Below are positions 16,341 through 20,841 of a stretch of 36,884 nt of DNA, one piece after another. Within the stretch, counting starts at the first letter, position 1. Each line of letters starts with the position of its first letter. This stretch comes from Verrucomicrobiota bacterium (GTDB lineage Bacteria > Verrucomicrobiota > Verrucomicrobiia > Verrucomicrobiales > DEV007). The stretch is from positions 1 through 36,884 of the forward strand of contig JAJRVS010000252.1 in the NCBI GenBank assembly GCA_024277195.1, given 5' to 3'. Under the pieces are notes generated by a model that ran no database searches, was not told where the DNA came from, and worked only from the letters and a program-made list of their open reading frames with translations. A program made the translations under genes and the position numbers.

Positions 16341-16673
16341 GGCTTGTTCTCCTTTTATTGGTTCTTCGACGGTCAGGTATGAGCCAGGCAATGAACTTGC
16401 TACAGCACGAACGATCTCAACTTGCAGATTCATGAGCACTGGCCACCGATTTGTGGGCAGTTCTATGATCGCAATGACCCAGCCAGAAAGGTTCTGCTGG
16501 TATCTCAGATTCTTATCACACAGAATACAAAGGTCGAACCCTCCATCCAAATGCCCCAAGAGTTCACCATTCTCCATACCACCGAATCCTTCTCGCTGAA
16601 CGCTGGTGACATCGTGATCTGGAAAGAACTTCCGCAACGGCCACGGCACGTTCTCGTCGAAAACGATTCTCAT
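16323..16673 (-). CDS. DUF5615 PIN-like toxin of a toxin-antitoxin pair (cassette gene)
   Basis: 116-residue PIN-like protein. Typical DUF5615 markers: FDENVPWPLRKFFP at the N-terminus (Asp6, Glu7, Asn8), FGGMENGELL, and CDKNLRYQQNLSG with Asp53 as the probable acidic-centre residue. Such proteins are predicted ribonucleases, paired with DUF433 antitoxins as here. Its ATG overlaps the antitoxin stop (ATGA), giving translational coupling. The final residues (about EPNT) are encoded by the R'' and L'' arms of the attC at 16239-16340. Toxin-antitoxin cassettes are thought to stabilise integron arrays. Target is not known. Confidence 0.82.
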   Translation of the reverse strand: MRIVFDENVPWPLRKFFPDHDVTSVQREGFGGMENGELLGHLDGGFDLCILCDKNLRYQQNLSGWVIAIIELPTNRWPVLMNLQVEIVRAVASSLPGSYLTVEEPIKGEQAVEPNT

Positions 16674-16879
16674 TCGGGTTTGTTCTCAAGGATACGAAGA
16701 AATTCTTCGGCATCCGAACGAGGAACGGACGGAAAAAATTCTAGAAACTGGGCCAGCGTGAAGTCGTCGTTGAGATAATCGAGAAGCGTCTGAACTGGCA
16801 CTCTAGTTCCGGTAAATACGAGTGCTCCGCCCAGAACATTGGGGGACGAAGTAATAGGAGAATGGTCGAGCACTGCCAT
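16670..16879 (-). CDS. DUF433 antitoxin-like protein (cassette gene)
   Basis: 69-residue DUF433 protein. The signature is GALVFTGTRVPVQTLLDYLN followed by FTLAQFLEFFPSVPRSDAEEF, the usual helix-turn-helix-like fold of this family. DUF433 proteins act as partners, probably antitoxins and DNA-binding autorepressors, of DUF5615 PIN-like proteins. The stop overlaps the toxin start by four bases. The ATG at 16879 lies 57 bases after the start of the cassette, leaving room for a small promoter: TATACTTT on the minus strand near 16890 could be a -10 box. This independence from the array promoter is usual for toxin-antitoxin cassettes. Confidence 0.82.
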   Translation of the reverse strand: MAVLDHSPITSSPNVLGGALVFTGTRVPVQTLLDYLNDDFTLAQFLEFFPSVPRSDAEEFLRILENKPE

Positions 16880-16931
16880 AGCAGGGAAAGTATAATCGAA
16901 ATCGATCGTGTGTAAAAGCCCTATTTTCTTA

Positions 16932-17056
16932 GGAGAACGCTTGAGTGCTACGACAGGCTACCTGAGAGCGCGCTTTAGGTTCAAGGTTAATGTTTGGATT
17001 TTATGTGAATTTCAACTCACAGCGGGTAGCCTGTTCGCAGCCACGATTTGTTCTCC
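16932..17056 (-). other. attC-like site after the HigBA-like cassette
   Basis: 125 bp. Minus orientation: R'' is GGAGAAC (17050-17056) and R' is GTTCTCC (16932-16938), mutually complementary. Inner arms CAGGCTACC and GGGTAGCCTG pair. The cassette it closes begins TTCTCC, the exact complement of this R''. Confidence 0.8.
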
Positions 17057-17068
17057 CGTAGATTTGAT

Positions 17069-17359
17069 TTATGCGTGCAGGGCGTGTAAAACAGCTTCTG
17101 GATCACGCTCTACGACTCGCAATAAGGCTTTGGCTGGCCCTTCGGGTTTGCGGTGCCCTTGCTCCCAATTCTGCAAGGTTCTTACACTAACACCAATAAT
17201 TGCCGCAAACCTAGATTGAGATAAGCCAAGATTTTCTCTAATAAGCTTTGGATCAGGTTGGTTGTGAACAAACACTCTCGATGGTTTACGATTACCCTTC
17301 TTTATTTCTCCAGATTCTTTGATGCTTTCACAGAGTTGTTGGAAATCTATATCGTTCAT
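17069..17359 (-). CDS. HigA/NadS-type helix-turn-helix antitoxin (cassette gene)
   Basis: 96-residue XRE-family DNA-binding protein. Helix-turn-helix: LGLSQSRFAAIIGVSVRTLQ followed by NWEQGHRKPEGPAKALLRV, which is the pattern of the antitoxins (often called NadS or HigA-like) encoded downstream of RelE/HigB-type toxins. It would neutralise the toxin and repress its own cassette promoter. The ATG overlaps the restored toxin stop (ATGA at 17356-17359), showing the two genes were one transcriptional unit. The stop is followed 12 bases later by the attC R'' box. The antitoxin frame is intact although the toxin is frameshifted. Confidence 0.88.
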   Translation of the reverse strand: MNDIDFQQLCESIKESGEIKKGNRKPSRVFVHNQPDPKLIRENLGLSQSRFAAIIGVSVRTLQNWEQGHRKPEGPAKALLRVVERDPEAVLHALHA

Positions 17360-17672
17360 GATTCTAAATGTTTGTCGATCAAGTCTCGGAGAATTCGAGC
17401 TTGCTCTGATGTTATATTTTCGCTTTTGCTTTTTGTATACGCATAGAGAAGAAATATCTCCTCGGCGCAGACAAGATAATAAATGATGCGTATCCCTCCG
17501 CTCTTGCCCTTACCTGGTAGCCTCCAAGAATTTTTCGTAATCCACGTGACCGCTGTATGATGTCGCCAGCTTCTGGGTCAGTAATAAGAACCTGCTGAAA
17601 TTCTGCATACGACTCGTCGCTGATGAGCTTAGTGACCTGCTCGGTAAAGACAGAAGTCTCATAAAATATCAT
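17356..17672 (-). pseudogene. RelE/HigB-family toxin with a one-base frameshift (cassette gene)
   Basis: The first half reads MIFYETSVFTEQVTKLI...QRSRGLRK, then leaves the family pattern and stops at 17412. Another frame supplies the rest: LPGKGKSGGIRIIYYLV, then EEIFLLYAYTKSKSENIT and QARILRDLIDKHLES, ending at 17356 and overlapping the antitoxin start. One extra base in the run of five A residues (plus-strand T run 17531-17535) would restore a single toxin of 105 residues. This is a real inactivating mutation, a sequencing error in a homopolymer, or possibly programmed slippage. RelE-fold toxins cut mRNA on the ribosome. The cassette begins about 58 bases upstream, with room for a promoter. 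Confidence 0.82.
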
Positions 17673-17724
17673 CTATGTAGGGACTATACGTCATAGACGT
17701 ATTTGAGCAATGTTTATTTCTTGA

Positions 17725-17851
17725 GGAGAACGTCGAGCACAGGCAACCCGCTACTGGCAGCGAGCGTTCGTGTTCAGGTTGAGGGTTAAAGTTTTCATTT
17801 AGATTTCGACTGGAGACTAGTAGCGGGTTGCTCTGCTGCGTTTTGTTCTCT
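17725..17851 (-). other. attC-like site after the first cassette (best preserved near intI)
   Basis: 127 bp. Minus orientation: R'' AGAGAAC (17845-17851), spacer AAAAC, L'' GCAGCAGAGCAACCCGCTAC, variable centre, L' GTAGCGGGTTGCCTGTGC, spacer TCGAC, R' GTTCTCC (17725-17731). L'' carries two bases, G and A, that have no partner in L', as expected of the extrahelical bases that orient attC. It is nearly the same as the site at 36652-36778. Confidence 0.85.
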
Positions 17852-18019
17852 CATTGCTGAGGTCAAAAGTACATCGCGCGCCCACCCGCTTAAAGTCCTG
17901 TCACTTGCAGCCTCAAAACAAATTTCTTTTTCACTTTGAGTCATTCTAATGAACAGTGACTCAGTGAATTTAGCGGCTTCCGGCTTTGCTGCAAAATTAT
18001 TTCCTTTAGGAGCTGGCAT
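17795..18019 (-). CDS. Hypothetical protein, second gene of the first cassette
   Basis: 74 residues, not recognised with confidence. FTESLFIRMTQSEKEICFEA followed by LSGWARDVLL resembles ribbon-helix-helix/MobC-like small DNA-binding proteins, which is a weak suggestion only. It overlaps the upstream gene by 14 bases. The last 18 codons (from REQNAAEQPAT onward) are encoded by the R'' and L'' arms of the attC site, so the tail is a by-product of the recombination site. A similar tail (QQNAAEQPAT, QSKSK) would be made by the frame that enters the attC at 36652-36778. Confidence 0.6.
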   Translation of the reverse strand: MPAPKGNNFAAKPEAAKFTESLFIRMTQSEKEICFEAASDRTLSGWARDVLLTSAMREQNAAEQPATSLQSKSK

Positions 18020-18230
18020 TAGAACTAGCAGTTGAAGACGCGATACCTGTCATTGTGAGCAAAGATAGAACATAAAATTTTTCGTCGTCGTCGTAGACTG
18101 TAGCAAAGGTGCCTTTAGGTGAAAGAGAAATGTAATCTCGGTGTGGTACAAAATACTCATTCCCATCGGCCATCCTTAACGAAAAAGGGTTGCCGCTTTC
18201 AATAGCTGCTTCGACTTGGCTTCTGCTCAT
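18006..18230 (-). CDS. Conserved hypothetical protein, first gene of the first cassette
   Basis: 74 residues. The pattern FSLRMADGNEYFVPHRDYIS followed by SPKGTFATVYDDDEKFYVLS matches a family of short beta-rich proteins I recall from Planctomycetes and Verrucomicrobiota, all uncharacterised; the C-terminal Ser/Ala-rich tail is low complexity. The ATG lies 55 bases downstream of the attI/cassette junction, next to the candidate array promoter, so this is the best-expressed position in an integron. Overlap with the following gene implies translational coupling. Confidence 0.65.
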   Translation of the reverse strand: MSRSQVEAAIESGNPFSLRMADGNEYFVPHRDYISLSPKGTFATVYDDDEKFYVLSLLTMTGIASSTASSNASS

Positions 18231-18278
18231 GCATAAAAGATAATCCTCACCGAAGTATGCGCAAGCACATTCTTTAAA

Positions 18279-18367
18279 AGAGAACAGTATAATATGGAAC
18301 TGTCCTGAATAACTGTTATTCTGGACAGTCTGTATAATAGTTACAAAGGTAACCCGTCTGGGCAGAC
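18279..18367 (-). promoter_or_regulatory. attI-like recombination site with 31-bp dyad and candidate array promoter
   Basis: On the minus strand the first cassette begins at G^TTCTCT (18285/18284), complementary to R'' AGAGAAC of its own attC. Just upstream is a -10-like TATACT (18286-18291), and a second, TATACA, is at 18331-18336; no convincing -35 was found. Between them lies a 31-bp dyad (18299-18329): ACTGTCC mirrored by GGACAGT and GAATAAC mirrored by GTTATTC, broken only by three single unpaired A/T positions. A second dyad, GTCTGGGCAGAC, is at 18356-18367. Integrase-binding or transcriptional control is inferred. Confidence 0.6.
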
Positions 18368-18457
18368 TTCGTCTCCTACACTTCGCAACCAGATTTTATC
18401 TGGATACGAGGCCTTGTAAAGAAAATTAGGGTTAATTTTTCTAGAAAAGTAAGCCGT
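18368..18457. other. Short intergenic stretch between attI-like site and intI
   Basis: Contains a small perfect hairpin, CCAGAT-TTT-ATCTGG (18389-18403), without a U tract. It may be part of the attI region or the 3' end of the integrase transcript. Nothing else was seen. Confidence 0.35.
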
Positions 18458-19939
18458 CTAAGTAAAATCCAACGGACTTGGCGCTCCGGCTCCTCGCCTT
18501 TTCATCACATGTAGGTAATTCATCGTTGTGGACACATCGGCGTGCCCTAACAAATCTTGCACGGTTCGGATATCCACACCACTCTCAAGAAGATGAGTAG
18601 CGAAGGAATGCCTGAAGGTATGACAGGAAATTCGTTTTGGAATTCGCGCTTTATTTGCTGCTACTTTCACTTGGCGCCCCAGCGATTTCTCATGCAAATG
18701 ATGTCGTGCCACGTGCCCTGTTCTCGGATGGGCACACAGTTTGGCGGAGGAAAAAATATGTTGCCAGAGCCATTCCTTTGCCGCATTGGGATACTTACGC
18801 CGCAGGGATTCAGTCAAATGCGCTTCCCCAAGCCCCATTTTTAAATCAGCTTGATGTTTTTCTTCGGCGAGACGCAAATAAGCCTTCAAATGCAGCTCTA
18901 AAACATTGGGCAATGGAACCATCCGGTGTTTGCCCCCTTTTGCATCGTGAATGGTGATGGCTCCTTGACCCTCAATCTTAAAACCTCACACGTCCTCAAA
19001 CCACTGCCATACATCAATTGTGCAATTAATTTCCACGGAGTTCCAAGGAAGCCTATCACTTTTTTCACTTCCTCCCGAGTCATCACCGTGGGCGGGCGGC
19101 GATGACCTCTCCAGGCCGGTTTATAATCGAGCTCAAGCTCTTCGATACCATACACTTTTTTAGCCAATAAAACCAAGGCGTTGAGTGCTTGTTTCTGAGT
19201 TGATGGAGCAACTTGCCTTTCCAAAGCGAGGTATTCCAGGTAGAGGCTGAGAGATTTGGGATTAAACTCCCATAAACTCTGCTGCAAACGTCGCAGCCTG
19301 AATTTGGAGAACCTCACAATCCAGGAAATATAAGTTTTTTCCGTCATCACGGCCAAGCCCGCCAATCGAATCGCTTTTTGGCTCTCTTGAACCATGTCTT
19401 CAATGGCCTCTTTTTTCCCCTTAACCGGAAGGCGGTCTTTGGGACTCGAGCAAGGTAGGTTCGCAGCATTCATGCGAGTGCGGGATTGCGCAGGTTTGGT
19501 CTCTCGGCAGAGGGTGCGGTGCGAACTCTCCAAGTCTACTGAGCCCCTGCCAATCAAAATTTTCCGCCCAGTCTAATGACGCCACTTTTTTTGCCCACAA
19601 TTCAATCGCCTCGACCGCTTGAATATAGTGCCAGTCCTGCAAATCCGATTTTCTACCCAGATTTTCGAAAAAATTTCGCGACGCCGCCTCATTCTTCCCG
19701 CCCCCCGCCTTCATCCAATGGCTCACCCAACGACCATAATGCGGATGGGTCGTTTTTTTGATTTTCGGATCCTGCCTGAGTAGATCCATATAACGCTGCC
19801 AGTCAGAACTGCCAGCCTGTTGATTAAGCGGGTTTTTACTGTTCGTTTGAACAGTTTCCGCAATTTCGCTTGTGATAACAAGGGAAATCTTCTTTTTACC
19901 ATTTTTCCTGGTAAGCAGCCACGAAAAATGCTTGATCAA
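18458..19939 (-). pseudogene. intI: Integron integrase IntI, broken by two lesions
   Basis: Tyrosine recombinase that would join attC and attI sites. Three overlapping frames add up to one IntI. The IntI-specific insertion is present ([19 protein letters not shown] then [13 protein letters not shown]), as are the catalytic Arg in [23 protein letters not shown] with the tyrosine, and the ending GAGAPSPLD. Lesion 1: one extra base in the G4 run at 19544-19547 shifts FDWQGL... out of frame. Lesion 2: after LRLRVK the frame changes to [14 protein letters not shown] near 18965; relative to the usual VKDIDFGQGAI, 19 bases are missing, which a slip between two copies of GTCAAGGA would explain. The start is uncertain (TTG at 19939 is the most upstream). 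Its 3' end faces the array. Confidence 0.88.
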
Positions 19940-19983
19940 ACCGAAATTAAATAATTTGCTTTTGTCGCCAAAGGCAAATATGG

Positions 19984-20841
19984 GTGTTTATCAGCATCGC
20001 GACATACATCAACGAAGATTTGGCCGCGCGGCTTCAAGCTGGGCAGGAATTGCCGGTAGCTTTGACTATCAACGCACTGGCGCGGCATTATGATGTCAGC
20101 TTCACCCCGGTGCGCACGGCGGTGGAGCAATTAACCCTGCAAGGTTTATTGATCAAAAGTCCCAACGGTCGTCTGGCCCGCGCTACGCCCGGCAAAAATG
20201 GCGCGGCAGTAAAGCCGGGCAAAACGTCCTTACCCACACGAGCGCGGGATTCTTATGCTTTGATCTCCAGCGATCTGATTGATCTGAGCTTAAAAGGTGA
20301 AGCCGTCTATTTGCGCGAAGAAGCTACGGCGGAAAAATACAGCCTCAGCCGTTCCGCGGTGCGCAATATTTTTCATCGCCTGGCGGGCACCGGCATCCTG
20401 GATCACATTCCGCGGCGCGGCTGGCGGCTGCGGGTTTTCTGTCAGGAAGATCTCGATGCTTTCAGTGATGCACGCGAAGCGCTCGAGCTCAAAGCGCTGG
20501 AACTGGCGATTCCCCAACTGGTGGAAAAGGATCTGCAGCAGATGCTCGACCACAATCGTATGCCATCAAACCCTCAGGATGAGCCTATGATTGATAATTC
20601 GTTGCATGTCTATTTCATCGACAAAGCGGATAACTTTTACATCAGGGATTTTTTCGAACGACACGGCAGCTACTTCTCGATGATCTTCAAAAAGGAAGCC
20701 AAAGACCGTGATGCCGCATTGGAGACAGCACACGATCACCGTAAAATCCTGACCGCTTTGTTAAACCAAGAATGGCAAGCGGCGCGCAAGGCTTTGTCCC
20801 GACACATCCGTTTTAATCATCCGGTTTTGAATAAAATCTAA
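19984..20841 (+). CDS. GntR-family regulator with two winged-helix domains and an FCD-like domain
   Basis: 285-residue transcription factor. First winged helix: residues about 5-65 (YINEDLAARLQAG...LTINALARHYDVSFTPVRTA). Second winged helix: about 90-152 (EEATAEKYSLSRSAVRNIFH, ending IPRRGWRLRVF). The remainder (DLDAFSDAREALELKALELA onward) is a helical FCD-type effector-binding domain, somewhat shorter than usual. One GntR wing plus FCD is the norm, so the duplicated wing is unusual. The start is the GTG at 19984, 44 bases from the divergent intI. It directly precedes the DUF1549/DUF1553 gene with almost no gap, so it probably regulates that operon in response to a catabolite. Confidence 0.8.
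   Translation: MFISIATYINEDLAARLQAGQELPVALTINALARHYDVSFTPVRTAVEQLTLQGLLIKSPNGRLARATPGKNGAAVKPGKTSLPTRARDSYALISSDLIDLSLKGEAVYLREEATAEKYSLSRSAVRNIFHRLAGTGILDHIPRRGWRLRVFCQEDLDAFSDAREALELKALELAIPQLVEKDLQQMLDHNRMPSNPQDEPMIDNSLHVYFIDKADNFYIRDFFERHGSYFSMIFKKEAKDRDAALETAHDHRKILTALLNQEWQAARKALSRHIRFNHPVLNKI

Follow-up and report, generated by a model that had tools for sequence, protein, structure and literature searches.

A near-perfect dyad in the attI site of a clade of reverse integrons is a candidate pair of accessory integrase boxes

Contig JAJRVS010000252.1 of a Verrucomicrobiota bacterium (DEV007; GCA_024277195.1), analysed here as a window of 36,884 nt with coordinates on the forward strand, carries a reverse integron in which the integrase gene intI, the recombination site attI and then two gene cassettes all lie on the minus strand in one direction, with intI transcribed toward attI, a layout shared across its clade. 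Within attI we find a 31-nt dyad (18299–18329, minus strand, sense sequence ACTGTCCAGAATAACAGTTATTCAGGACAGT) that genuinely belongs to attI in this clade and is conserved there, its pairing being kept in relatives with compensating changes; the minus strand is the sense strand for dyad, attI, intI and cassettes alike. The explanation we favour, to which the comparison of sequences gives about an even chance, is that the dyad represents an inverted pair of recombinase-type boxes, that is, accessory integrase sites, which is also able to fold as a hairpin.

Read directly from the plus strand, 18299–18329 is ACTGTCC-T-GAATAAC-T-GTTATTC-T-GGACAGT, with 15-nt arms, one mismatch and one central base. 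At a threshold of 15-nt arms, no more than one mismatch and a loop of at most 3, it is the sole dyad of its quality in the window, and nothing comparable arose when the window was shuffled 60 times under a Markov model or the local composition 300 times. The initial annotation was confirmed in its description of four blocks of 7 bases, each parted from the next by a single unpaired base. The DNA fold around the dyad (221 nt) has a z of -3.15. Its placement at the attI junction was likewise borne out, as the crossover, ...TATACTG|TTCTC on the minus strand, falls between 18285 (G) and 18284 (T), 13 bp beyond the dyad stem. This crossover belongs to an attI core (CATATTATAC-TG|TT, 18283–18296, minus strand) that reads CAATAA(C/A)ACT|GTT in relatives, and identity between attI copies stops there. 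Boxes of the form GTATAATA are present twice, at 18287–18294 and at 18332–18339, the second position being that of the box's direct copy on the upstream side (TATTATAC, minus strand), which lies 26 bp from the right half of the dyad in sister copies. The left part of the repeated attI is formed by a conserved leader block (GGAGACGAAGTCTGCCCAGACGGGTTACCTTTG, 18344–18376, minus strand). The attI with its G|TT crossover heads the array, different cassettes following the shared block in other copies, and the two attC sites between cassettes (125 and 123 nt, one orientation, none similar in shuffles) have ends, GAGAAC/GTTCTC, identical to those at the crossover.

Conservation was assessed on 33 attI loci, comprising 28 intI-adjacent sites from the same bacterial order and 5 solitary ones, grouped into ten sequence types; repeats were also counted on one representative per type. 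The initial annotation had tied the significance of the dyad to its conservation in related integrons, and the symmetry is indeed kept there. In eight sequences from the window's genus, 89.8% of the stem cells are paired, compared with 85.5% after column shuffling and no more than 42% with a slid partner, and five stem pairs are changed on both sides. Because column shuffles ignore relatedness, we place more weight on the distant cases: L027/G026, with an IntI 70% identical, has GCCGCACGCTGCCA/TGGCAGCGTGCGGC about the same centre, and in G002, L116, L122, L124, L137 and L143 arms of differing letters are well paired at the same place. The DNA-fold z averages -2.27 over the 33 loci, versus about 0 in flanking controls from the 3' end of intI and the start of the cassette (rank test p = 3e-8, overstated since the loci are related), with weak or no fold in L119, L120, L121, L127, L138 and L146. 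In relatives measured by eye, the dyad ends 9–17 bp ahead of the crossover. When a wider set of 80 loci was scanned generally for dyads downstream of intI, a core-flanked one appeared in L027 only; the dyad is therefore not general to integrons.

Between the putative cassette promoter (Pc) and the crossover, inverted repeats were found in nine of the ten sequence types and direct repeats 24–28 bp apart in eight. Among the representatives, six carry the direct pair (shuffles: 0.6, maximum 4) and eight the inverted pair (shuffles: 3.0, maximum 7). The spacing of the direct repeats is 27 bp in the L119-L129, L123 and L125 types, 28 bp in L126/L131/L147, and 24–26 bp in the window's genus, L115 and L137. 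The earlier suggestion that symmetry here takes the place of direct binding sites thus did not hold, since most relatives carry both. Moreover, the letters of the box shift together, GGACAGT becoming CAACACAGT in C241, GCGTGCGGC in L027, GTCGCC/GGCGAC in L137 and CCGACCGGTCG in L126, and the direct copies in one attI share the box of that lineage, which goes beyond what a hairpin alone would require. Because the repeats keep their spacing while their letters change together, as protein boxes do, we prefer integrase boxes over a pure hairpin.

On this explanation, attI would occupy about 100 bp, beginning shortly after Pc and running to the G|TT crossover, and would hold several copies of a lineage-specific box, direct and about 27 bp apart in most lineages, the window's genus having the inverted box pair that forms the dyad and, upstream of it, a weaker direct copy. 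IntI would bind these boxes on double-stranded DNA as accessory sites beside the L/R core, and the resulting complex would be built next to the crossover, where the folded attC is exchanged. Pc, if active, would transcribe through the dyad into the first cassette, and solitary attI copies may be used as landing sites in trans. Several observations weigh against accessory boxes. A strong inverted repeat is lacking in the attI of L119, L127, L138, L144 and L146; the window's own direct copies are weak (9/11 matches, at spacings of 37 and 45); and the arms reach 18–20 bp in C241, L122 and L143, versus the 11–13 bp usually covered by one recombinase subunit. In addition, because the window's own intI is broken, present use of its attI would need another integrase.

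The best sigma-70-like pair in the window's attI region, taken as Pc (18393–18420, minus strand), consists of TTTACA (18420–18415) and TAAAAT (18398–18393) separated by 16 bp, and in 21 of the 33 loci the -10 of the best pair ends 108–115 bp before the crossover. Because this conserved promoter-like pair lies that far upstream, the dyad is probably inside a transcribed leader. The TATACT box, first taken for a promoter element, is on comparison with relatives attI core and not a promoter: at that place relatives have CAATAACACT or CAATAAAACT, so the junction -10 is not conserved, and a promoter scan that placed the -10 no more than 14 nt from the crossover yielded pairs that were for the most part weaker and not conserved. 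Many relatives also have, by eye, an open reading frame (ORF) of about 31 codons running from ATGAAC across the dyad region to a stop at CAA TAA in the core, which recalls ORF-11, the short leader ORF in attI1 (PMC8876359). A conserved leader peptide was considered and rejected, the differences among L123, L138 and L141 not being concentrated, by eye, at third codon positions.

A transcribed position raises the possibility, tentative in our view, that the dyad acts as a leader-RNA hairpin, in which the folded 5' leader of the Pc transcript would protect, insulate or tune translation of the first cassette. The strongly negative fold energies across the clade, the stem pairs changed on both sides and the ORF through the region in many relatives are all consistent with such a role. 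A hairpin would, however, make the direct repeats of fixed spacing superfluous; the six loci with weak or no fold do not fit it, the leader ORF lacks a start codon in the window's genus and in L142 it is interrupted, and G-U type pairs show no clear preference for the sense strand.

Returning to the DNA itself, the palindrome might extrude as a hairpin or cruciform, with IntI or a host factor recognising the folded attI as happens with attC. The retention of pairing despite letter changes (L027, G002, C241, L143) and the known action of this integrase family on folded single strands speak for this; but the dyad has neither the R''/L''/L'/R' layout nor the extrahelical bases of attC, the crossover sits 13 bp outside the stem, and the integrons studied so far recombine attI in duplex form, and we consider it unlikely. 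Much the same, if slightly lower still, is our estimate for an origin by mutation rather than selection, with rough inverted repeats perfected by template switching during replication: pairing is extended abruptly in some lineages (L122 beside L126, L143 beside L120), but template switching leaves unexplained the fixed place before the crossover, the direct repeats at 24–28 bp and the persistence in nine of ten types. An operator for a host repressor such as LexA, controlling cassette transcription, is very improbable, since the symmetry of the dyad and its site downstream of Pc, which would suit a roadblock, are set against a LexA-type box located at intI instead, arm letters that vary among copies in one genome, and an adjoining TATACT that is not a conserved -10. 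Of the roles proposed at the outset (operator, second recombination site or hairpin), a recombinase site or a hairpin therefore fits, while a host operator at the promoter fits poorly.

Other identities for the dyad were rejected outright. The LexA motif TGTTC-N4-GAACA is absent from it, the only window match being at 19840–19853; it is not an attC, being a simple 31-nt dyad with the crossover outside rather than a folded R''-L''-L'-R' with the crossover in R'; no Rfam 15 family matched over it (16500–20100 searched, E up to 1); and, by direct reading, its AT-rich stem is followed by TTCCATATTATACTG without the T run of an intrinsic terminator. A group II intron at L027 was dropped as a proof of in vivo folding of the dyad, as its domain V has AGC, by our own reading, and not the CGC of group IIC, and an upstream stem is reported as needed by group IIC introns only (PMC7923331).

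A 90-bp attI block ending exactly at G|TT (18285/18284) also occurs on contigs C200, C282 and C241 of the same genome, and in genomes of the same genus, on C31, C79 and C147 of G001 and once in G002, beside intI. The C79 copy adjoins the G001 intI, whereas C200, C282, C241, C31 and C147 have no adjoining integron integrase, and these five are what we term solitary attI sites. Identity among the copies stops at G|TT, with distinct cassettes beyond. An attC follows the solitary attI at C241, and attC-like structures were seen by eye at C200 and C147; because the copies at C31, which runs to a contig end, and C282, which is close to one, are so placed, their arrays are incomplete. Four of the five solitary copies (C200, C282, C147 and C31) have a good promoter-like pair upstream, about 30 bp farther off in C282 and C31 with unconserved sequence in between, and C241 has a weaker one by eye. 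The first cassette at C200 resembles, by eye, a PIN-domain toxin with a partner.

Elsewhere, genome G243 holds about ten attI copies (C26, C54, C123, C126, C169, C205, C211, C216 and C238; L192–L199), several of them with an intI end upstream and different first cassettes. We rejected these as solitary sites, since those read closely mostly carry the intI end, which indicates repeated duplication of the whole platform. On G384:C271 (L208), at about 861–970 of the contig, an attI copy has a promoter and no intI end upstream, and may be a solitary site belonging to a genus other than the window's. We suggest, with considerable reserve, that one reverse-integron integrase may serve many dispersed solitary promoter-attI platforms in the genus, their self-complementary attI being marked by pairing rather than by letters, which would give each genome several independent sites of cassette capture and expression.

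The window's intI (18458–19870, start approximate, minus strand; 3' end facing attI) was placed among integron integrases by Pfam and NCBIfam, its pieces lying in different frames. TIGR02249 matches two pieces at 217.3 and 100.6 bits (cut-off 265), the gene being split by frame changes near 18965 and 19540, which were located by comparison with the unbroken 479-codon intI of G001 (C79), 88% identical to it over the C-terminal part; they may reflect decay or an assembly error. The integrases of the reverse-integron group form one clade (support 0.965), of which a few members, such as L114, L134 and L135, show no such attI. Open frames of reverse-integron IntI run to about 460–480 codons (e.g. 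G001 C79), versus 315–337 positions in integron-integrase models, and because of this excess an N-terminal extension of about 130 residues is likely. At the start of intI lies a LexA-type box (TGTTCGTTTGAACA, 19840–19853, no strand assigned), a perfect TGTTC-N4-GAACA and the only match in the window (0.07 expected), found at the same relative position in many reverse-integron relatives. This is reportedly the LexA motif of Verrucomicrobia (Erill et al. 2016). The box suggests that intI is under SOS control, which is well known for intI (PMC3108266). A second integron integrase in the same genome (G000 C9, L016, 59–1606) is unbroken, is arranged divergently in the usual way and comes with a cassette and attC; read by eye, its attI has direct repeats and no dyad. 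In trans, this integrase could serve the window's attI.

The first gene cassette (17726–18284, minus strand) contains two overlapping 74-codon ORFs (18230–18006 and 18019–17795) and ends in an attC at 17850–17726; the second (16933–17725, minus strand) contains an ORF at 17672–17412 and a NadS-type helix-turn-helix ORF at 17359–17069, with an attC at 17055–16933. Both thus carry small-ORF pairs (17069–17672, 17795–18230), and at least one resembles a toxin-antitoxin cassette, because one small ORF encodes a NadS-type helix-turn-helix protein.

In class 1 integrons, intI is divergent from the cassettes, Pc lies inside intI, and attI1 has no near-perfect 31-bp dyad. The window shares with attI1 an L/R core with a GTT crossover, putative extra upstream IntI sites and, in many relatives, a short leader ORF, and differs from it in an intI that points the same way as the cassettes and in the near-perfect dyad. 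As far as the accessible parts of its descriptions go, the reverse integron of Treponema denticola has the same layout, all in one direction, and a putative attI in which S1/S2 and the direct repeats DR1/DR2 lie beside G|TT; it belongs to another bacterial group, and those parts mention no palindrome, in contrast to the conserved palindrome before the core, the direct repeats at 24–28 bp and the solitary attI copies seen here (PMC3607928, PMC7691350). The arrays at C200 and C241 resemble clusters of attC lacking an integrase (CALINs) in having cassettes without a nearby intI, but unlike these they are still headed by a promoter-like pair and a complete attI. While reverse integrons are already known, palindromic attI sites and solitary promoter-attI platforms seem new, no description of either being present in the literature searched, which left most subscription papers outside.

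An attI is usually described as single in each integron, poorly conserved and adjoining intI. With a large set of related attI sites, the layout, spacing and co-evolution of the boxes can be read directly, and the solitary copies raise the question of whether landing sites at a distance are also used by an integrase, with a bearing on the origin and continued expression of integrase-less cassette arrays such as CALINs.
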